From a bacterium (GTDB lineage Bacteria > Patescibacteriota > Saccharimonadia > Saccharimonadales > Saccharimonadaceae), in the NCBI GenBank assembly GCA_030428585.1, contig JAUIDL010000014.1:1-13577 (forward strand): a stretch of 13,577 bases of DNA. Direction: 5' to 3'. The notes beneath the pieces were generated by a model. That model saw only the letters and a list, made by a program, of their open reading frames with translations. It ran no database searches and was not told the origin of the DNA. The position numbers and the translations under genes are program-made. Shown one piece after another: positions 57 to 7,755 of the stretch (its first letter is position 1; the number at the start of each line of letters is the position of its first letter).

Positions 57-341
57 ATGATAGCTGACATTAAGAAGCGGGCGATACACCGCTCAAAGAT
101 TATAGAAGGACAATTTAAGGGGCTTGAGAAAGCCATCGAGAACGAGACGTACTGCATGGACATTCTGACGCAGAGCCTTGCTATTCAAAAATCGCTCGCT
201 TCGCTCAATAAGCTCATCTTGGAGAACCACCTACGCACCCACATGGCTCACTCGCTGGAGTCGCACAGTCCCGACGAGCAGGATAGGGCCGTCGATGAAA
301 TGCTCAGACTATACGAACTAAATAATATACGGGGGAAATAG
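57..341 (+). CDS. csoR: CsoR-family copper-sensing repressor (DUF156)
   Basis: This 94-aa all-helical DUF156 protein has the usual family length. Members bind operator DNA as tetramers and let go when Cu(I) is bound. The visible metal site is Cys33 in TYC, His58 in NHLRT and His62. Classical CsoR has Cys-His-Cys, so the third ligand is His here. A C-H-H site is known in Thermus CsoR and resembles RcnR, but the RcnR His3 is absent (Ala3). The gene directly follows a CsoR-type operator, so it should be autoregulated. Its stop abuts the ATG of the ATPase gene with no gap, implying one transcript and coupled translation. There is no Shine-Dalgarno sequence, and the -10 box lies about 8 nt upstream, so the mRNA may be leaderless. 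The copper context argues for Cu/Ag sensing over Ni/Co; the exact metal is unproven. Confidence 0.9.
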   Translation: MIADIKKRAIHRSKIIEGQFKGLEKAIENETYCMDILTQSLAIQKSLASLNKLILENHLRTHMAHSLESHSPDEQDRAVDEMLRLYELNNIRGK

Positions 342-2474
342 ATGGATCACTCACACCACACCCACACGCAGCCTGATCACGAGCAACATGGCAAAAATAC
401 ACAGTACGCCTGCCCGATGCATCCCGATGTCACCTCAGACAAACCAGGCATGTGTCCGAAATGTCACATGGCACTCGAAAAAGTAAAACAGTCACCAGAG
501 CAGCACGATCACGACCATGACAAACACGCTGGTCATAGCCCCAATATGTTCAAGCAAAAGTTTTGGTTGAGCCTACTGCTGACCGTGCCGACACTGGTAT
601 TTTCGCACACCGTACAAAGTTGGTTTGGCCTTGATTTCATGTTCACCGGCAGCGAGTACATTCCGGCCGTGTTCGGTACAATCATTTTCCTCTATGGCGG
701 CTTGGTATTCCTCAAGAGCGCCAGAGGTGAACTAGCTGCCCGTCAGCCTGGTATGATGACGCTGATCTCAATGGCGATTTCCGTTGCGTTCGTCTATAGT
801 CTACTTGTCACATTCAAGGTAGTGAGCGGTATGGACTTCTGGTGGGAGTTGGCAACGCTAGTGACGATCATGCTGCTCGGCCACTGGCTCGAAATGGCAT
901 CTGTCCAAAATGCGCAGGGAGCGCTCAATGAGCTTGCCAAGCTACTCCCCGATGAGGCAGAGGTAGTTGATGGTGATGCAACGAAAAAAGTCCTGATTAG
1001 CGAGCTAAAAGTCGGTGATTTACTGCTCATTCGTCCAGGCGCACAAGTGCCGGTTGATGGCGTGGTCGTCAAAGGCTCGTCCGAAGTCAATGAGTCTATG
1101 CTAACCGGCGAATCAAAGCCAGTAGCCAAAAGGCCAAATAGCGAAGTGATTGGTGGCACAATCAATACTAGCGGCGCACTCACGATCAAAGCGACAAAAG
1201 TCGGTAATGATACGGCACTCGCTGGTATTATGAAACTCGTCGAAGAAGCGCAGACCAGCAAGTCAAATACTCAGATACTAGCCGATAAAGCCGCGTTTTA
1301 CTTAACTTTTGTTGCCCTTGGCGCAGCGCTGATTACTTGGATTGCGTGGTGGATTGCGGGCGCATCGGCCGGATTTATTTTAGAGCGTATTGTAACGGTG
1401 CTAGTAATCGCCTGTCCGCACGCCCTTGGCCTCGCCGTACCACTTGTCACGGCCATCTCGACCACATTGGCCGCCAAGAACGGCCTACTTGTTAGGCAAC
1501 GCATGGCACTTGAAGCAGCGCGAAATATCGACGTGATACTGTTTGATAAAACCGGCACGCTTACGAAAGGCGAACAAGGTGTTGTTGATGTCGTGGCGAA
1601 AGACAAGACCCGCATGTTGAGTCTCGCTGCTGCACTAGAGCGCGAATCAGAACATCCAATTGCGAAAGCTATTTTCCAGTATGCACGCGGTCAAAATGTG
1701 CCGGAAATTCACACCACTGACTTTTCGGCACTTTCTGGTCGTGGTGTACGAGCAACGATCAACGGCAAGTCTGTCTATATTGGCGGCCCACGAATCCTCG
1801 AAGAACGCGCCGTCCGGCTTGATGCCACGCTGCGAGCGGCAACCAAAAAAGCCTCAGACGATGGTAAGACGGTTGTGTATGTCATCGAGGGCAGAAATGT
1901 CTTAGGTGCGATCATGCTGGCCGATGTGATACGCAAAGAATCAAGAGAAGCCGTGGCAACGCTGCATAGTATGGGCAAGCGCGTCGCTATGCTGACCGGT
2001 GATAGTAAGGGTGTGGCCGCATGGGTAGCCAAGGAACTTGGTATCAAAGAATACTTTGCCGAGGTACTACCTGAAAACAAAGCCGAAACCGTCAAGAAAT
2101 TACAAACAGACGGCAGCCGCGTGGCAATGGTCGGCGATGGCGTCAATGACGCGCCTGCCCTGACGCAAGCCGATATTGGTATTGCGATTGGCGCTGGTAC
2201 TGATGTTGCTATTGAATCAGCCGGTATCGTACTGGCAAGCAGTGACCCACGCGGGGTTGCTAAAATCGTCACGCTCTCGAAAAAGACGTATAGCAAAATG
2301 GTACAGAACCTTGCGTGGGCAACCGGTTACAACGCCCTCGCAATTCCGCTTGCGGCAGGTGTGACATCAGCACTCGGCTTTGTATTGTCACCAGCGTTTG
2401 GCGCGGTACTGATGTCGCTATCGACCATCGTTGTTGCTATAAACGCGCAGTTTTTACGAAAAGTACGGTTGTAA
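342..2474 (+). CDS. copB: CopB-type P1B-3 heavy-metal-exporting ATPase
   Basis: This 710-aa ATP-driven pump probably exports copper or silver from the cytosol. The N-terminus is His-rich and holds a heavy-metal-binding domain at about residues 22-46 (YACPMHPDV, then CPKCHM), followed by a second His/Asp cluster (55-65). Four membrane helices follow (about 74-183). The actuator motif is TGES 255-258, the intramembrane metal motif CPH 358-360, the phosphorylated aspartate D402 in DKTGT, the HP pair H438-P439, and the hinge GDGVNDAP 598-605. The last two helices carry QNLxWAxGYN (from 655) and MSLST (from 691). CPH plus these two signatures mark the P1B-3 (CopB) class rather than CopA (CPC). No N-terminal CxxC MXC-type domain is seen. 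The gene begins directly after csoR and is followed after 10 nt by the YHS-reductase gene. The subgroup is confident; the transported ion is inferred. Confidence 0.94.
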   Translation: MDHSHHTHTQPDHEQHGKNTQYACPMHPDVTSDKPGMCPKCHMALEKVKQSPEQHDHDHDKHAGHSPNMFKQKFWLSLLLTVPTLVFSHTVQSWFGLDFMFTGSEYIPAVFGTIIFLYGGLVFLKSARGELAARQPGMMTLISMAISVAFVYSLLVTFKVVSGMDFWWELATLVTIMLLGHWLEMASVQNAQGALNELAKLLPDEAEVVDGDATKKVLISELKVGDLLLIRPGAQVPVDGVVVKGSSEVNESMLTGESKPVAKRPNSEVIGGTINTSGALTIKATKVGNDTALAGIMKLVEEAQTSKSNTQILADKAAFYLTFVALGAALITWIAWWIAGASAGFILERIVTVLVIACPHALGLAVPLVTAISTTLAAKNGLLVRQRMALEAARNIDVILFDKTGTLTKGEQGVVDVVAKDKTRMLSLAAALERESEHPIAKAIFQYARGQNVPEIHTTDFSALSGRGVRATINGKSVYIGGPRILEERAVRLDATLRAATKKASDDGKTVVYVIEGRNVLGAIMLADVIRKESREAVATLHSMGKRVAMLTGDSKGVAAWVAKELGIKEYFAEVLPENKAETVKKLQTDGSRVAMVGDGVNDAPALTQADIGIAIGAGTDVAIESAGIVLASSDPRGVAKIVTLSKKTYSKMVQNLAWATGYNALAIPLAAGVTSALGFVLSPAFGAVLMSLSTIVVAINAQFLRKVRL

Positions 2475-2484
2475 AGGAGGGATT

Positions 2485-3417
2485 ATGCACGACCATCACG
2501 ATCACGAACATCATCACCATCATCATGGCGATGCGCCAGCCGTTGACCCAGCGACGCTCGACGATACGCAGGCGATTTGTCCAGTGACAGGCGATGTCGT
2601 CGTCAAAGCCGAGTCAGAGGCGCTTGGTCATAGCCGCCAACATGACGGACAGACCTACTATTTCTGCTGCGCGACGTGCGTACAACTGTTCGATAAAAAC
2701 CCTGAAAAATATACCCATCAAACCCATAGCACCGATACCCTCACGCTCACAAGCAAAGAGAACCTAGCAGATAATGTCTGGGCGTTTCGATTCGAGGCGG
2801 ACACACCGATCTCATGGACACCAGGCCAATTCATTCGTATTGAGTTGCCTCATGATAATCCTGATGATGAGGGAACGAAACGCTGGTTTACAATCTCATC
2901 GACGCCCCATGACGGCTATATTCAGATTACAACTCGCGTTACCGATACCACCTTTAAGCAGGCGCTCGCTGCGCTGCCAATCGGCAGCACGATCAATCTT
3001 GTTGAGCAGCCGGATGGTGATTTTGTCTGGCAAGAGAGTGAAAAGCCGCTGGTATTTATCGCGGGTGGCATCGGTATCACCCCGTTCTACAGTATGCTCA
3101 AAGCCAGAGGCCATAGCGGACAGCCGGTGTCGGCAACGCTTATTTATAATGGTCGAACTGATGAGTTACCATTCAAAGTGGAGTTTGAAGAAGCCAGCAG
3201 GCGACATCCAGAGTTTAAGGTGCACTATGTTATCGGAGAGCAGCTCACTACCGAAAAACTCACAGAACTCGTGCCCAATATTAGTTCGTCACAGGTTTAT
3301 ATTTCAGGTGCCGAGTCAATGGTGGAGGCCCTCGGTAAGCAATTAGAAGAGAGTGGGCTTGCTAATGATAATCTCCATCAAGACTTCTTCCCTCACTACA
3401 ACGAAGAGAGCTACTAG
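2485..3417 (+). CDS. His-rich YHS domain fused to NAD(P)H/FAD oxidoreductase
   Basis: This 310-aa protein has three parts. Residues 2-14 are a His/Asp tract including six consecutive His. Residues 30-76 are a YHS-like metal-binding domain (CPVTG at 32-36, YYFCCATC with Cys61, 62 and 65, then NPEKY). Residues about 82-310 are a ferredoxin-NADP-reductase-type module with the FAD motif RWFTISS (133-139), the pyridine-nucleotide motif GGIGITP (194-200), and the C-terminal SGAESMV and DFFPHY segments. There is no 2Fe-2S ferredoxin domain, no signal peptide and no membrane helix, so it is probably cytosolic and needs another electron acceptor. A strong Shine-Dalgarno (AGGAGG, 2475-2480) sits 4 nt before the ATG, fixing the start. 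Position in the csoR-copB operon suggests metal-linked electron transfer or metal reduction. NADH versus NADPH cannot be told. YHS domains often accompany copper genes; this fusion is uncommon as far as I know. Confidence 0.85.
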   Translation: MHDHHDHEHHHHHHGDAPAVDPATLDDTQAICPVTGDVVVKAESEALGHSRQHDGQTYYFCCATCVQLFDKNPEKYTHQTHSTDTLTLTSKENLADNVWAFRFEADTPISWTPGQFIRIELPHDNPDDEGTKRWFTISSTPHDGYIQITTRVTDTTFKQALAALPIGSTINLVEQPDGDFVWQESEKPLVFIAGGIGITPFYSMLKARGHSGQPVSATLIYNGRTDELPFKVEFEEASRRHPEFKVHYVIGEQLTTEKLTELVPNISSSQVYISGAESMVEALGKQLEESGLANDNLHQDFFPHYNEESY

Positions 3418-3421
3418 AAAT

Positions 3422-3450
3422 ATGACTCTTGGGACAAATTACGGTAAAAT
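3422..3450 (+). promoter_or_regulatory. Putative promoter for the 3457 gene (leaderless)
   Basis: ATGACT (3422-3427, four of six matches to the -35 consensus) lies 17 bp before TAAAAT (3445-3450, a good -10). The ATG at 3457 begins 7 nt after the last base of the -10, about where transcription would start. No good Shine-Dalgarno is present. The promoter starts just after the stop of the YHS-reductase gene (3417) and no CsoR-type palindrome is visible, so the downstream genes could be partly independent of CsoR. Confidence 0.45.
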
Positions 3451-3456
3451 AGAGAT

Positions 3457-3831
3457 ATGAAACGAGTGTTCCAAGGCGCTGTTTACGTGCTCATGGTTTC
3501 AGTACTAAGCGTACTGTCCTTAGGTATATATGCAGCTGCCGCACAGACTATGAACATGGGGCACTCAATGGGTGGTGCATCTCATCAAGTAAGTTCATCG
3601 AATTGTTTTACTGCTTGTACGACGGCAACTCTTCGCAAAGACGAGTTCATCAAAGATACCGAGAAAGACGAGGATGGCAAGCCGCAGCCTCCATTTTATG
3701 TTCAGTTCCAGACATCACCCCTTTTGGCCCTTGAAGAAAAGCATAGTCAAGAGACAAGAGCTGCCGGGGATAGAGAACCACCCCCTGGTGGCGTACCCGC
3801 CTACATTGGTTTGACCGTCTTTCGTGCTTGA
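3457..3831 (+). CDS. Small secreted Met/His/Cys-rich protein, unknown
   Basis: I do not recognise the family of this 124-aa protein. It starts with a positively charged end (MKR), a hydrophobic helix at about residues 8-25 and an Ala-rich stretch ending AAAAQ, which looks like a cleavable signal peptide (cut near 29/30) or an anchor. Right after comes a Met/His cluster (MNMGHSMGGASH, 32-43) and a Cys-x3-Cys pair (Cys50, Cys54) in NCFTAC; Met, His and Cys are typical Cu(I) ligands. The rest is charged and Pro-rich with no further Cys. It sits between the CsoR-controlled operon and the DUF305 cluster, so a small extracytoplasmic copper/silver-binding protein is the likeliest role. That role is inferred from composition and place, not homology. 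Confidence 0.6.
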   Translation: MKRVFQGAVYVLMVSVLSVLSLGIYAAAAQTMNMGHSMGGASHQVSSSNCFTACTTATLRKDEFIKDTEKDEDGKPQPPFYVQFQTSPLLALEEKHSQETRAAGDREPPPGGVPAYIGLTVFRA

Positions 3832-3833
3832 GA

Positions 3834-3865
3834 TTTAGCTGTTTACGTTTTACTAAATAGCTAAA
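3834..3865 (+). other. AT-rich stem-loop before the first DUF305 gene
   Basis: TTTAGCTGTTT (3834-3844) pairs with AAATAGCTAAA (3855-3865) in RNA, with one G-U pair and a 10-nt loop; A3833 and T3866 extend it to 12 bp. It starts 3 nt after the stop of the 3457 gene, and the Shine-Dalgarno AGGAG (3868-3872) follows 2 nt after its 3' arm. There is no U-run, so it is not a standard terminator. An RNA-stability element or a control of translation start for the DUF305 gene fits better. Confidence 0.55.
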
Positions 3866-3878
3866 TTAGGAGTACTTT

Positions 3879-4532
3879 ATGAATAAAAAGAATAAACAAA
3901 TGCTAATTGTGGGTCTTGTCGCTTTTGTAGTTGTAGTGGGTGTTGCGACTTTTGTGTTCCGTGACCAACTATTCCGAAGCGTTTCAGTCCAGCCGCCATC
4001 AGAGATGGCACAAGTCGATACAACGTCAGATACATACAAGCAATATGCTGCCATGACCGGCGAAACCTATGACCGCAACTTTATCGCTAATATGATCGCC
4101 CATCACCAAGGTGCGGTTGATATGGCGAAGTTGGCATTAACGAGCGCCAAGCACCAAGAGCTGAAAGATATGGCGAACGACATCATCTCGGCTCAAGAGG
4201 GTGAGATTAGTCAGATGACGGCTTGGCAAAAAGAATGGGGTTATCCATCGACAAGTGCCGACAACATGATGGATCACAGTGCTATGGGTATGATGGATGA
4301 GATGGCTGGTATGAACAGCGCCCTGGAGGGAAAGACGGGTGATGAGTTTGACAAAGCTTTTATCGAGCAGATGATCATGCACCACCAGTCGGCTATCGAC
4401 ATGGCTGCTCCTGGTGAGAAAAACGCACAGCACCAAGAACTAAAAGATCTTACCAAAGCTGTCGTTTCTGCTCAGACACAAGAAATCAAGCAAATGAAGC
4501 AGTGGCAGCAAGAGTGGGGTTATGACAATTAG
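3879..4532 (+). CDS. Membrane-anchored double-DUF305 putative metal-binding protein A
   Basis: This 217-aa protein has Lys-rich residues 1-7 and then one membrane helix (about 8-27), which should leave the rest outside the cell membrane. It carries two DUF305 (ferritin-like helical) repeats. Repeat 1 is about residues 64-125 with MIAHHQGAVDMA (HH at 75-76) and WQKEWGY at its end. Repeat 2 is about 157-217 with MIMHHQSAIDMA (HH at 168-169) and WQQEWGY. The linker is Met/His/Asp-rich (NMMDHSAMGMMDEMAGM). DUF305 includes cyanobacterial CopM, a periplasmic copper binder, so metal binding via the HH and Met residues is a fair inference. The Shine-Dalgarno AGGAG sits 6 nt before the ATG. The 3' end overlaps the next gene by 11 nt, indicating coupled translation. 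Confidence 0.88.
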   Translation: MNKKNKQMLIVGLVAFVVVVGVATFVFRDQLFRSVSVQPPSEMAQVDTTSDTYKQYAAMTGETYDRNFIANMIAHHQGAVDMAKLALTSAKHQELKDMANDIISAQEGEISQMTAWQKEWGYPSTSADNMMDHSAMGMMDEMAGMNSALEGKTGDEFDKAFIEQMIMHHQSAIDMAAPGEKNAQHQELKDLTKAVVSAQTQEIKQMKQWQQEWGYDN

Positions 4533-5040
4533 ACCATTTCCTGTTGCATTAGCGACTGTCGTAGTTGGCTTTATAGCGGTTATTATAGTCAGCAAGATAA
4601 CCGCTCCGCCAGAACCACCACGTCCAGGCATTGAACAAGCCGATCATGGCCGTGAACACGTGAGCAGCAAGGAGTATGGCGGTGACCAACCGCCTACTTC
4701 TGGCTCGCATGCTAATCCCGTTGCATGGGGCGTTTACGATACTGAAGTTCGTGACGACCAAGTGATACACAATATGGAGCATGGCGGAATCTATGTCTCG
4801 TACCAACCCGATTTACCACAAGATCAAATTGAGAAGCTCAAAAAGCTGCTCTCTGAACCGTTCTCTAACCCAGAGTTCCAACCGAAAAAAATAGTGCTTG
4901 CACCAAGAGCTGCAAATAAATCACCTATAGAGCTGAGTTCGTGGCGTCGGAGTGAGTCGCTAGCAAGCTATGACCAGAAGAAAATAGAAGAGTACATAAC
5001 GAGGAATCTGGGTAAAAGCCCGGAGCCACTTGCACGGTAG
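4522..5040 (+). CDS. DUF3105 membrane-anchored protein
   Basis: This 172-aa protein has one N-terminal membrane helix (about residues 7-24), a Pro-rich spacer, and a DUF3105 domain. Family marks seen are GDQPPTSGSHA (54-64), WGVY (69-72) and the HNMEHGGIYVSY block (83-94). The clustered His (63, 83, 87) and Glu86 could form a metal site, but this is inference, as the DUF3105 function is unknown. The domain should lie outside the cell membrane. Its start overlaps the end of DUF305 gene A by 11 nt and it ends 16 nt before DUF305 gene B, so all four genes are probably translated from one message. The placing inside a DUF305 cluster suggests a shared task in metal handling. Confidence 0.8.
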   Translation: MTIRPFPVALATVVVGFIAVIIVSKITAPPEPPRPGIEQADHGREHVSSKEYGGDQPPTSGSHANPVAWGVYDTEVRDDQVIHNMEHGGIYVSYQPDLPQDQIEKLKKLLSEPFSNPEFQPKKIVLAPRAANKSPIELSSWRRSESLASYDQKKIEEYITRNLGKSPEPLAR

Positions 5041-5056
5041 GCTGGAAGGTAAAGAT

Positions 5057-5680
5057 ATGCGAAAGACAGTAACAACAATTGCCGTTGTGCTAGTGTTTGG
5101 AGGAGCAGCTTTTGGTTGGTGGCTTTTGCAAAACCAGCCAGCTTCAGCTCCACCAAAAACAGCGCCTCCTGTAAGTAGCAATCAAAACAAACCCGATCCA
5201 AACAAACATGATTTTTCTGATGTAGACTTCTCTCGAAAAATGATTGTCCATAACCAACAAGCTATAGAGATGACAGAGGCTATTTTAGCGGTATCAACTA
5301 ACCAAGCTGTCCGTGAAATAGCTGCAGAGATACAACAGGAGCAAAAAAGCACCGAAAATCAGTATAAAAATTGGCTCGGCGAGTGGAACGAAACATACAC
5401 AAACTTGTCCGATTTTCCTGAAATGGACGGTCATGACATGTACCCTACCTATCTTGGCCTCGCGTCAGCGACAAACATGGCGGCACTCAAAACCGCAACC
5501 GGTAGTGACGCAGACAGGCTTTTCATTAGTCTGATGATTGCGCACCACGAGGGAGCGATTCAGGACAGCGGTGTGGTTAGCGATCTTCAATATGGCAAGT
5601 TGATCGAGTTCAAAAATAAAAGCCTCACCAGCTACAAGAACTATATTAAAAGATTAGAAGACTTACAAAAGGAAGAGTAA
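5057..5680 (+). CDS. Membrane-anchored DUF305-like protein B, diverged
   Basis: This 207-aa protein has a membrane helix (about residues 6-24), a Pro/Lys/Asn spacer, and two DUF305-like units. Unit 1 (about 58-118) has MIVHNQQAIEM, with His65-Asn66 in place of the usual HH pair. Unit 2 (about 154-207) keeps MIAHHEGAI (HH 163-164), but the following helix is diverged (QDSGVVSD) and the end lacks the WQxxWGY signature. The Met-rich linker of its siblings is reduced to MDGHDMYP. The ATG at 5057 is chosen over an in-frame TTG at 5030 because GGAAGG (5044-5049) sits 7 nt before it. Its stop overlaps the next ATG by one base (TAATG). It is probably a paralogue that has shifted in metal affinity or role, perhaps as a partner subunit. 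Confidence 0.8.
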   Translation: MRKTVTTIAVVLVFGGAAFGWWLLQNQPASAPPKTAPPVSSNQNKPDPNKHDFSDVDFSRKMIVHNQQAIEMTEAILAVSTNQAVREIAAEIQQEQKSTENQYKNWLGEWNETYTNLSDFPEMDGHDMYPTYLGLASATNMAALKTATGSDADRLFISLMIAHHEGAIQDSGVVSDLQYGKLIEFKNKSLTSYKNYIKRLEDLQKEE

Positions 5681-6345
5681 TGAAAATAACGAAGAACAAG
5701 CTGTTTGCCGTTATCATCATCGTGTTGGTGGCTTTTGCGGCCGCCATTTGGTACTTTGGGGTCTTTTCGATTAAACCCGAAAAGACAACATTTAATACCG
5801 AAAACACGAAGAGTAGCCAGCAGGCAGCAACTACCGAAAAAACCACAGATAGCAAGTACGCTACTCTTAAGGGTGACGCTTTCGACGAAGCATTTATAGC
5901 TGATATGATCGCTCACCATGAAGCAGCGATAAACATGTCGGAGCAGGCGCAGGCTATGACGGCACATGATGAAATTCGTACCCTTGCTAGTTCGATCATG
6001 GAAACGCAAACAACGGAAATGGTACAGATGCGGGAATGGCAGCAAGCATGGGGCTTCGAGATTACAAATAGTGGTGGTCACATGAGTCATGGTGGTGGAG
6101 GTGCGGAAATGGCGGGTGACATGGTCGAAATGCAAAATAAGTTGAAGGACTTGAAGGGCGAAGCATACGATAAAGAGTTTCTTAAGCAAATGATTGTTCA
6201 TCATGAGCAAGCTGTAGATATGGCAAAATATGCGGCCGACAATGCCAAGCGTCAAGAAATAAAAGACCTCGCAAGTAGTATCATTAAAGCTCAAAATGAG
6301 GAAATCAGACAGATGAAACAGTGGCAAAAGGCCTGGAGGTATTGA
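5680..6345 (+). CDS. Membrane-anchored double-DUF305 putative metal-binding protein C
   Basis: This 221-aa protein has Lys-rich residues 2-7, a membrane helix (about 8-27) and a Thr/Ser/Lys spacer to about 60. It then has two DUF305 repeats, each with an intact HH: MIAHHEAAINM (HH 79-80) and MIVHHEQAVDMA (HH 174-175). They end in WQQAWGF and WQKAWRY. The linker GGHMSHGGGGAEMAGDM is rich in Met and His. It is closest in layout to protein A, so A and C look like duplicates with diverged B between. The start overlaps the stop of B by 1 nt and AAAGGAAGAG upstream is a good ribosome site. It ends 3 nt from the convergent stop of the - strand membrane gene, with no terminator between them. A metal (Cu/Ag) binding role outside the membrane is inferred from family and context. 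Confidence 0.88.
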   Translation: MKITKNKLFAVIIIVLVAFAAAIWYFGVFSIKPEKTTFNTENTKSSQQAATTEKTTDSKYATLKGDAFDEAFIADMIAHHEAAINMSEQAQAMTAHDEIRTLASSIMETQTTEMVQMREWQQAWGFEITNSGGHMSHGGGGAEMAGDMVEMQNKLKDLKGEAYDKEFLKQMIVHHEQAVDMAKYAADNAKRQEIKDLASSIIKAQNEEIRQMKQWQKAWRY

Positions 6346-6348
6346 TTA

Positions 6349-6963
6349 TTACTTACGAGGTAGCGTCTGAAAGTCACGAATAACTTGCAAAACAAGGCAT
6401 GGTGCAAGTACAGCACCCAAAGATAGCCACCACATGAAGAAAGTGCTGCTATACATATTTGTCCCAAGGGCTAGACTATGTATAAAAATTGCCACCATTG
6501 CCAATGCTTGAAGTAAGCTTACATACGGCCAGAGCCCTTTTGCAGTGAGTTTATGACGGAAGCACTTTAAGATATCGTAGAGCAAAAAGGTTGCTAGTGC
6601 GGCAAAAGCTAAAGCTACCGCCCATACGCGCAGCGGGCCAACATAGGTTACGTAGCTCTCTGGGGGCAACAGACCCGTATCGAGAAATCGCTGTACTAAA
6701 AAAATACCAGGGTGCATAAGGATCAACAGAAGAATGAAGCGCCCCGTCCATTTAATATACTGTTTGCTAATCCTGGACACACTGATAACACCCATGATGT
6801 AATATGTCCACATCGTCGTCCATGCAAGTACTCCTAGTATGGGGAAGAATTGATACATTGACATAACGTCACCCGACAATGTCATGAACCATAGAGCGAC
6901 GCTAATAATGGATACGTAGCCGAGTAAAATCCAAGCCAGATGTTGTTTTGCAAAGCGATACAT
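6349..6963 (-). CDS. Ferric-reductase/MsrQ-like heme membrane protein
   Basis: This 204-aa protein has about six hydrophobic helices: near residues 9-29, 40-60, 74-92, 110-130, 146-166 and 174-193. The layout recalls the ferric-reductase-like/YedZ-MsrQ fold, which carries heme b between helices. His84 (TGRF...LMHPG) and His162 (AIFIHSLALG) sit where E. coli MsrQ has His91 and His164. The position of MsrQ His151, 13 residues before the last His, is Ser149 here, so one heme may be lost. The assignment is by motif and shape and is not certain. The gene runs divergently from the cytochrome b5 gene, 42 nt apart, with a shared -10 box. Its 3' end faces the DUF305 cluster at 3 nt. Its job is probably to pass electrons across the membrane, perhaps between the YHS-reductase and cytochrome b5. 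Confidence 0.6.
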   Translation of the reverse strand: MYRFAKQHLAWILLGYVSIISVALWFMTLSGDVMSMYQFFPILGVLAWTTMWTYYIMGVISVSRISKQYIKWTGRFILLLILMHPGIFLVQRFLDTGLLPPESYVTYVGPLRVWAVALAFAALATFLLYDILKCFRHKLTAKGLWPYVSLLQALAMVAIFIHSLALGTNMYSSTFFMWWLSLGAVLAPCLVLQVIRDFQTLPRK

Positions 6964-6972
6964 TCTAGTTTC

Positions 6973-6980
6973 ATTATAAT
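6973..6980. promoter_or_regulatory. Shared symmetric -10 box of a divergent promoter
   Basis: ATTATAAT is its own reverse complement, so TATAAT reads on both strands: 6975-6980 on + and 6978-6973 on -. On -, the ATG at 6963 begins 9 nt after the box, giving an almost leaderless transcript. On +, transcription from about 6987 would leave a short leader with AAAGGA before the ATG at 7006. No clear -35 was seen on either side. On +, TATACT (6996-7001) is another possible -10. Confidence 0.45.
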
Positions 6981-7005
6981 CGAAGAAAGGATAAATATAC
7001 TTATC

Positions 7006-7407
7006 ATGAAAAAAAGTACAGTTATATTTTCGGTAGTCATTTTGCTGCTACTAAGTGCTATCGGTGTGGGTGTTTGGGCGACGCTTAATAATCGTCAAAC
7101 TCAACCATTCCTTAACAAGCAGACCTCCGACCAAGCTAAGACGTATACGCTAAGTGAGGTTGCACGGCACGCATCAAAAGACGACTGCTGGGCAATTATT
7201 TCTGATGATGTGTACGATCTGACGGAGTTTATAAATCGTCACCCTGGAGGCGATGAGATTCTTCGAGCGTGTGGCACGGACGCGACGACGCTATTTAACT
7301 CTCGGCAGACTCAAGATGGCCAATGGGTAGGTTCGGGAACACCACATAGTCAAGCAGCAATGGAGCAATTAGCAAAACTAAAAATTGGAACAGTAAACAA
7401 GAACTAA
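7006..7407 (+). CDS. Membrane-anchored cytochrome b5-domain protein
   Basis: This 133-aa protein has MKKS, then a membrane helix (about residues 6-24), a short spacer and a cytochrome b5-like heme-binding domain (about 45-125). Family marks are YTLSEVARH, CWAIISDDVYDLTEF, HPGG (79-82, first heme ligand His79) and a second His, His114 in TPHSQAA. The positive N-terminus should stay inside, placing the heme domain outside. The ATG at 7006 is preferred over an in-frame TTG at 6940, because the longer form has no ribosome site and would give a poor N-terminus. It lies back-to-back with the heme-type membrane protein and 5 nt before a broken HxlR gene. It is likely a one-electron carrier, though its partners are not shown by sequence. 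The assignment to the b5 fold is firm. Confidence 0.9.
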   Translation: MKKSTVIFSVVILLLLSAIGVGVWATLNNRQTQPFLNKQTSDQAKTYTLSEVARHASKDDCWAIISDDVYDLTEFINRHPGGDEILRACGTDATTLFNSRQTQDGQWVGSGTPHSQAAMEQLAKLKIGTVNKN

Positions 7408-7412
7408 ACACA

Positions 7413-7755
7413 ATGAAAAATGACCAAACACAACTCGTCTTAGATATCCTTAGCAGCAAATGGGCAACTCGAATTGTTAAAGCACTCGATGATGGCACAA
7501 GACGATTCAGCGAAATTCAGAAAGCGTTGCCAGATACAAAGCAAAAGGTACTCACTGAAACTTTACGAAAACTAGAACGCAACGGCATTATTGATCGTAG
7601 AGCATACCCAAATACCACCACAAGTAGAATACAAACTAACACCCATTGGCCTCAATTTACTTAAGTTGTCTGGTGTTTTGTCCGAGTGGGTTGATATTCA
7701 CGCTAACGATATAGAACGAGCGCAAAAATCATATGATCGTCGTAATAGATCGTAG
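7413..7755 (+). pseudogene. HxlR-family regulator broken by a frameshift
   Basis: The first part (7413-7610) reads as a clear HxlR winged helix: LVLDILSSKWATRIVKALDD, RRFSEIQKALP, LRKLERNGIIDRRAYP. After the codon CCA at 7608-7610 the frame fails, and the open frame continues only to 7664 with unrelated residues. Reading from 7612 restores the family tail PPQVEYKLTPIGLNLL and on to a stop at 7753-7755. Family members have one residue between YP and the hydrophobic residue before PP, so two bases were lost (or one gained) near 7610-7612. The repaired protein would be about 113 aa, the normal size. HxlR proteins often sense redox or aldehyde stress. It lies 5 nt after the cytochrome b5 gene and may have controlled that pair. 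A sequencing error is the alternative. Confidence 0.85.

Follow-up and report, generated by a model that had tools for sequence, protein, structure and literature searches.

The 13,577-nucleotide stretch analyzed here, referred to as the window, is one contig (JAUIDL010000014.1; C54 in our numbering, in which G, C, and L mark genomes, contigs, and sequence stretches) of a Saccharimonadaceae genome of 697,248 bases in 87 contigs (87.49% complete), and the named relatives of its proteins are from Saccharibacteria/Saccharimonadales. It holds a copper island composed of a csoR-copB unit (57-2474), a YHS-FNR gene, several small proteins, among them three DUF305 proteins, and the two genes on which we focus: one for a 204-amino-acid membrane protein (TM204) and one for a cytochrome b5. 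A first-pass annotation, made from the sequence alone, had named these parts, and all were confirmed. A gap of 3 bases separates the end of TM204 from the last DUF305 gene, and its start is 42 bases from b5; TM204 diverges from b5 and converges on the copper operon and, being on the opposite strand, is no member of that operon. The listed b5 open reading frame opens at 6940; the relatives begin at the ATG at 7006-7008, so 7006-7407 is likely the b5 gene. A promoter and terminator scan found sites no more commonly than in shuffled sequences (13 versus 10.5; 5 versus 9.0). We propose that TM204 and b5 form a dedicated pair that would move electrons through the cell membrane to the outside.

TM204 has no match in Pfam or NCBIfam. 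The FRD model PF01794 detects neither the window protein nor anything else in its genome at E values up to 1, and it matches only 3 of the 48 TM204 loci, below cut-off, that we found in 47 of 197 Saccharimonadales genomes (the order survey; E < 1e-20). In a family survey of 305 genomes, copies with E < 1e-50, a threshold chosen for this analysis, are called window-type. The first-pass annotation described the protein as heme-type; this description lacks a family match, but the fold and a histidine pair favor it. The predicted structure has six long helices packed as the six-helix bundle of the FRD fold, of which a hydropathy scan recovers five, missing the second, and the loop charges fit a topology with both termini inside. 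The top-ranked fold matches are SpNOX (the best), b561, and STEAP. H84 in transmembrane helix 3 (TM3) and H162 in TM5 are kept in 27/27 and 41/41 aligned sequences and at 9/9 further loci, and all 48 order loci have them; M156 is nearly invariant.

In alignments, H84 and H162 correspond to the outer heme pair of four-His FRD proteins. The inner pair, present in NOX enzymes, is missing, and the FRD and FNR parts that NOX joins in a single chain are separate genes in the window. STEAP holds a single outer heme. By alignment and loop charges, TM204 has the same single TM3/TM5 pair at the outer site, with a predicted heme, and because the inner pair is missing, it resembles single-heme STEAP1 and not NOX. 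A TM204 profile had no sequence match among solved chains at E values up to 1; its four-His relatives match STEAP4 weakly (E = 0.0038). Judged by distant homology and predicted fold, TM204 is a distant FRD relative, and its two histidines suggest that it binds heme.

The window b5 is the only PF00173 match in its genome. Its heme ligands H81 and H116, together with C63 and C91 (numbered from the codon at 7000), are all kept in 31/31 aligned sequences; both Cys positions can also be aligned with PDB 1cxy, a cytochrome b5 that we take to be bacterial, from which the window protein differs in being anchored in the membrane and in having an extended loop ahead of its second His. Across the order, 40 b5 loci occur in 33 genomes, and 10 of them have a TM204 locus no more than 500 bases away, while ∼0.09 would be expected within 1.5 kb under random placement in an 850-kb genome. 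Nine of these 10 pairs are independent, since G053 and G058 have the same contig (L123, G053:C2, and L122, G058:C43; 99.99% identity over 7,433 bases), an identity between genomes of different families that suggests cross-binning. The two genes are divergent in nine pairs and on the same strand in one (G076). Presence of both genes in one genome (14 genomes; Fisher P = 0.008, uncorrected for kinship) is modest on its own. At the family level, b5 adjoins TM204 at all 10 window-type loci. Co-occurrence in related genomes, which the first-pass annotation had proposed as a check, is thus observed, with TM204 adjoining b5 in 10 of the 33 genomes that have b5. Homology and genomic context give good support to its proposed step from membrane heme to b5, and we consider electron transfer from TM204 to b5 likely. 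We found no description of this pairing in the literature searched, which took in few subscription journals.

TM204 also has another type of neighbor. Cupredoxin-like genes, clustered by single linkage with two likely strays (L148 and L175) excluded, lie within six genes of TM204 at 15 of the 48 loci and directly adjoin it at 13. Of two that were scanned against Pfam, L101 is over the Cupredoxin_1 cut-off (30.6 bits versus 27) and L100 is just under it (26.2); a plastocyanin-like Cys-x-x-His end is present in 5 of the 15 (L140, L142, L143, L147, and L150; a pattern search finds four) and absent from the rest. Four of the 15 loci with distant TM204 copies in the family survey were examined, and all have a cupredoxin-like gene next door (L216 to L219). 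In the order survey, a copy from another family (G192; E = 2e-56, 37% identity) has no b5 match in its genome and has a cupredoxin-like gene three genes off. TM204-b5 pairs are also found in stretches of 3.4 to 19 kb in which no copper-island gene was seen (L102, L120, L121, L122, L148, L152, and L157). Together, these neighborhoods suggest that TM204 is a general outward relay drafted into the copper island.

Among the 30 b5 loci away from TM204, a PF01794 protein lies within 1.5 kb at 6 (0.13 expected) and within 3 kb at 8, in seven genomes; these distances use 88 of 91 PF01794 rows, the 3 omitted being TM204 loci themselves (G176, G165, and G038). The protein beside b5 in L161 has FRD, FAD, and NAD domains in one chain according to Pfam. 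Long FRD-FNR proteins (417 to 453 amino acids; NOX/ferric-reductase-like) directly adjoin b5 in L161, L164, L165, L166, and L178, the last four being assigned from PF01794 matches at the same place. From their sequences, these proteins may be one-chain counterparts of the window system. The other 22 b5 loci have neither TM204 nor a PF01794 protein within 3 kb; they include two copper islands lacking TM204 (G154 and G158) and six with another conserved neighborhood (L168, L170, L172, L173, L174, and L176). Genes that we read as phosphodiesterase-like, thioredoxin-reductase-like, and glutaredoxin-like surround b5 in these six, though not every gene is in each locus.

Weak matches to TM204 were rejected as members of the family; the 11 aligned proteins have four invariant histidines, as FRD proteins do, and such matches were excluded from the counts. 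Of 61 order genomes with a TM204 match, 14 have weak matches only; these matches, examined in 13 stretches (L126 to L138), sit near FNR genes. In L126, L127, L129 to L135, L137, and L138 (e.g., L127:6577-10014), an FNR gene, an ApbE-like gene, and a four-His FRD gene occur together, often with a Big_14-like protein; Pfam confirmed ApbE in L127, the stretch checked, where PF01794 was under its cut-off. This set resembles a system for electron export linked to flavinylation (compare PMC8238504). In L128 (9888-11390, minus strand), one gene joins an RnfD/NqrB-like membrane part to an FNR domain, beside FRD-like and ApbE-like genes. A 573-amino-acid frame at the TM204 locus of G094 (L101:9617-11335, minus strand) was considered as an FNR fusion and ruled out, as Pfam finds nothing along the entire chain; its TM204 domain extends into ∼350 further residues, also without a Pfam match, beside the cupredoxin gene.

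The genes of the copper island are listed in Table 1. The ATPase has a CPH motif and an N-terminal heavy-metal-binding domain. The CopM cut-off (NF049983) is passed by two of the three DUF305 proteins, each of which has one N-terminal hydrophobic segment in a simple hydropathy scan, the method used for all such segments. The 124-amino-acid protein had no match in Pfam or NCBIfam scans and is kept across copies of the copper island. CsoR has the triad C-H-H instead of C-H-C in 7/8 aligned copies, L169 having C-H-C. The HxlR-type regulator is intact at 115 to 117 amino acids in relatives L002, L003, and L005, and the break in the window may be a sequencing error or decay.

Table 1. Features of the copper island in the window
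Feature	Position	Strand	Basis
CsoR-family metal-sensing repressor, triad C-H-H	57..341	+	PF02583, E = 1.4e-20; triad from alignment
P1B copper ATPase, CopB-like, His-rich	342..2474	+	TIGR01511, 604 bits (cut-off 397); PF19335
YHS-FNR, candidate electron donor	2485..3417	+	PF04945, PF00970, and PF00175 above cut-off
124-amino-acid protein, one N-terminal hydrophobic segment, contains Met/His/Cys	3457..3831	+	Hydropathy
DUF305/CopM-type anchored protein, predicted copper binding	3879..4532	+	PF03713, E = 9e-41; NF049983 (CopM), 115 bits (cut-off 90)
DUF3105 protein, N-terminal anchor	4522..5040	+	PF11303, E = 1e-23; hydropathy
DUF305 protein	5057..5680	+	PF03713, E = 1e-29; CopM, 67.3 bits (under cut-off 90)
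DUF305/CopM-type protein	5680..6345	+	PF03713, E = 1.5e-51; CopM, 96.4 bits (cut-off 90)
TM204, six-helix FRD-like membrane protein, predicted single heme (H84, H162)	6349..6963	-	Distant homology, predicted fold
Cytochrome b5, membrane-anchored, predicted outward-facing	7006..7407	+	PF00173, 70.0 bits (cut-off 23.7)
HxlR-type regulator downstream of b5, frame broken	7413..7755	+	PF01638 in two frames, 7413-7664 and 7591-7755

The arrangement of these genes is not due to chance, since the same order recurs in other Saccharibacteria. With TM204 and b5 in place, it is found on single contigs in G093 (L139), G583 (L007/L213), G612 (L008/L214), and G625 (L002/L215) and is spread over two contigs in G675 (C23 and C25) and G576 (C6 and C11); the islands of G611 and G665 are interrupted by contig ends. 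G672 (L006/L207) has TM204, b5, and DUF305 genes and is missing a full YHS-FNR. The island lacks TM204 and keeps b5 in G154 (L159) and in G158 (L160), the latter also lacking YHS-FNR. YHS-FNR and b5 are present without an adjoining TM204 in G618 and G630, while G562 and G668 have YHS-FNR with neither TM204 nor b5 within the stretch examined.

YHS-FNR, in which a His-rich and YHS metal domain is fused to an FAD/NAD(P)H reductase, has no hydrophobic segment. Its FAD (RWFTIS) and NAD (GGIGITP) motifs and residues R133, T136, S139, G194, G195, G197, T199, and P200, invariant in 29 aligned sequences, are those of an FNR domain. Its best solved relatives are 8qq5 and 8qq1 ("Oxidoreductase," 221 to 222 residues; E = 1e-14), probably the isolated SpNOX domain to judge by neighboring entry codes; SpNOX itself matches at E = 5.6e-14 (residues 203-388), and flavohemoprotein, BenC, flavin reductase, and cytochrome b5 reductase are further relatives. 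Full-length YHS-FNR is found in 3 genomes of the order survey and 12 of the family survey (E up to 1e-120 in the latter). Window-type TM204 is present in 10 of the 305 family genomes and accompanies YHS-FNR in 7 (Fisher P = 2e-9, a value that mostly reflects one inherited island). With distant copies counted, 10 of the 12 YHS-FNR genomes hold some TM204, although distant copies are in any case widespread in genus g10. In the window's own genome (87% complete), YHS-FNR is the sole PF00175 match. STEAP1, which has no reductase domain, is reported to be reduced from the inner side by soluble cytochrome b5 reductase or free reduced FAD (PMC10659578), and YHS-FNR is a plausible donor to TM204.

From these elements, we propose the following chain. 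NAD(P)H would reduce the FAD of YHS-FNR, most likely the donor in the copper island, and the flavoprotein would dock on the inner face of TM204, a pared-down FRD protein with one b-type heme held near the outer face between H84 and H162. The electron would cross TM204 to this heme, b5 would accept it outside, and b5 would pass it to an extracytoplasmic acceptor, for which the best guess in this copper setting is Cu(II) or an oxidized copper-loaded DUF305/CopM protein. Together, the three proteins would amount to a NOX/STEAP-like enzyme split into separate genes. We assign a probability of about 0.5 to this reading, an outward TM204-b5 relay fed by YHS-FNR in which a copper-linked acceptor is the best guess; the inclusion of YHS-FNR in the chain stands at even odds or slightly below. 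The first-pass annotation had suggested that Cu(II) or another metal could be reduced outside the cell or Cu(I) kept loaded on DUF305 proteins. Copper genes do adjoin the pair, but the acceptor is read from those neighbors (a CopB-like ATPase, CopM-type proteins, and CsoR), and copper in this role is doubtful.

Several observations weigh against YHS-FNR as the donor. Five of the 12 YHS-FNR genomes have no window-type TM204, and two of them, G154 and G562, have no TM204 at the thresholds used; conversely, G672, G611, and G665 have window-type TM204 with no YHS-FNR match, the last two on cut contigs. No PF00175 match was found in 14 of the 47 TM204 genomes, several of them 97 to 99% complete; the 14 include 4 of the 10 genomes in which b5 adjoins TM204. 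YHS-FNR therefore cannot be the general donor of the family. Moreover, with the inner His pair missing, FAD-to-heme transfer would be longer than in NOX. The flavin-to-membrane-heme step of the first-pass annotation is thus weaker than the step to b5. These absences fit a scheme of two modules, in which YHS-FNR is a cytosolic copper- or flavin-reductase serving CopB through its YHS/His-rich metal part and another flavoprotein or quinol feeds TM204-b5. YHS-FNR does carry a metal domain and directly follows copB; it occurs without an island TM204 in G154, G562, G618, G630, and G668, and the pair occurs without it in G672. The seven genomes shared by YHS-FNR and window-type TM204 and the lack of any other FNR-type donor seen in the window's own genome make this separation rather unlikely, though it is the strongest of the alternatives.

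The bacterial NADPH oxidase SpNOX tops the fold matches of TM204, and its chains rank with the closest sequence relatives of the FNR domain. This could indicate a chain ending on oxygen or superoxide, either NOX-like or oxygen scavenging, whose place close to copper genes would reflect the joint occurrence of copper stress and oxygen stress; the seven pairs seen without a copper-island gene would agree with this. TM204 lacks two of the four histidines that hold heme in NOX, however, and a dedicated b5 or cupredoxin neighbor points to protein acceptors, so we regard an oxygen-directed chain as improbable. Even less probable is a heme-free TM204 that would use its histidines and Met156 to handle copper within the membrane, beside an unrelated b5. 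The nearly invariant M156, the copper and cupredoxin-like neighbors, and the lack of a Pfam family speak for it, but TM204 agrees with heme FRD proteins in its His positions and its predicted fold, and b5, a heme protein, adjoins TM204 even where no copper gene is seen.

PF00762 (ferrochelatase) and PF00115 (COX1) had no match in the window's 87.49% complete genome; other heme-synthesis genes were not searched. With no ferrochelatase found, heme would have to be taken up, and the host bacterium seems unable to make it. The first-pass annotation assumed that Patescibacteria mostly lack respiratory chains and heme synthesis. The missing COX1 and ferrochelatase agree, as does a survey in which none of the Patescibacteria genomes examined had a complete electron transport chain (PMC7507113), but the genome is incomplete and some soil Saccharibacteria encode cytochrome bo3 oxidase (PMC6031116, PMC8407418). 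Heme scavenging has been proposed for another Saccharibacterium, one with a bo3 oxidase (PMC6031116).

FRD-type chains are already known, and the window system would be a split, single-heme version. Like STEAP1, TM204 has six helices and no reductase domain of its own, and its TM3/TM5 His pair lies at the site of the outer heme; STEAP1 can also take up electrons on its cytosolic face from a soluble flavoprotein of the FNR type (PMC10659578). TM204 differs in being bacterial, in lacking sequence matches to solved chains, and in probably handing electrons to b5 or a cupredoxin and not directly to metal. The likeness to SpNOX/NOX/FRE lies in the SpNOX matches of both fold and FNR domain, while two genes replace one, two histidines replace four, and the FAD motif is RxFT, whereas a motif of the HPF[TS] type is described in NOX (PMC5676040). 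MsrQ/Fre/MsrP (YedZ) of Escherichia coli likewise combines a separate FRD protein, a cytosolic flavin reductase, and an extracytoplasmic partner (PMC5676040), but the partner in the window is b5 (cupredoxin-like elsewhere) and not a molybdoprotein. Within Patescibacteria, Vampirococcus (Absconditabacteria) has a transmembrane flavocytochrome-like part tied to FNR, plus b5; in this case, a single fused protein has eight transmembrane segments with flavocytochrome, rubredoxin, and FNR parts, and the available portion of the report mentions no copper genes (PMC8080830).

Tentatively, we suggest that Saccharibacteria, a group presumed to be largely without electron transport chains, have a family of minimal membrane cytochromes, each with a single heme, through which electrons would leave the cell for an exchangeable b5 or cupredoxin, and that in the copper island such a cytochrome, joined to YHS-FNR, forms a copper-linked outward reductase chain running on scavenged heme. 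The proposal offers a testable function for an unannotated membrane protein family that 47 of the 197 order genomes carry. If it is true, a conserved transmembrane heme relay would explain why such cells might take up heme, and, with interchangeable partners outside, it could dump electrons, detoxify metal, or act on the host surface.

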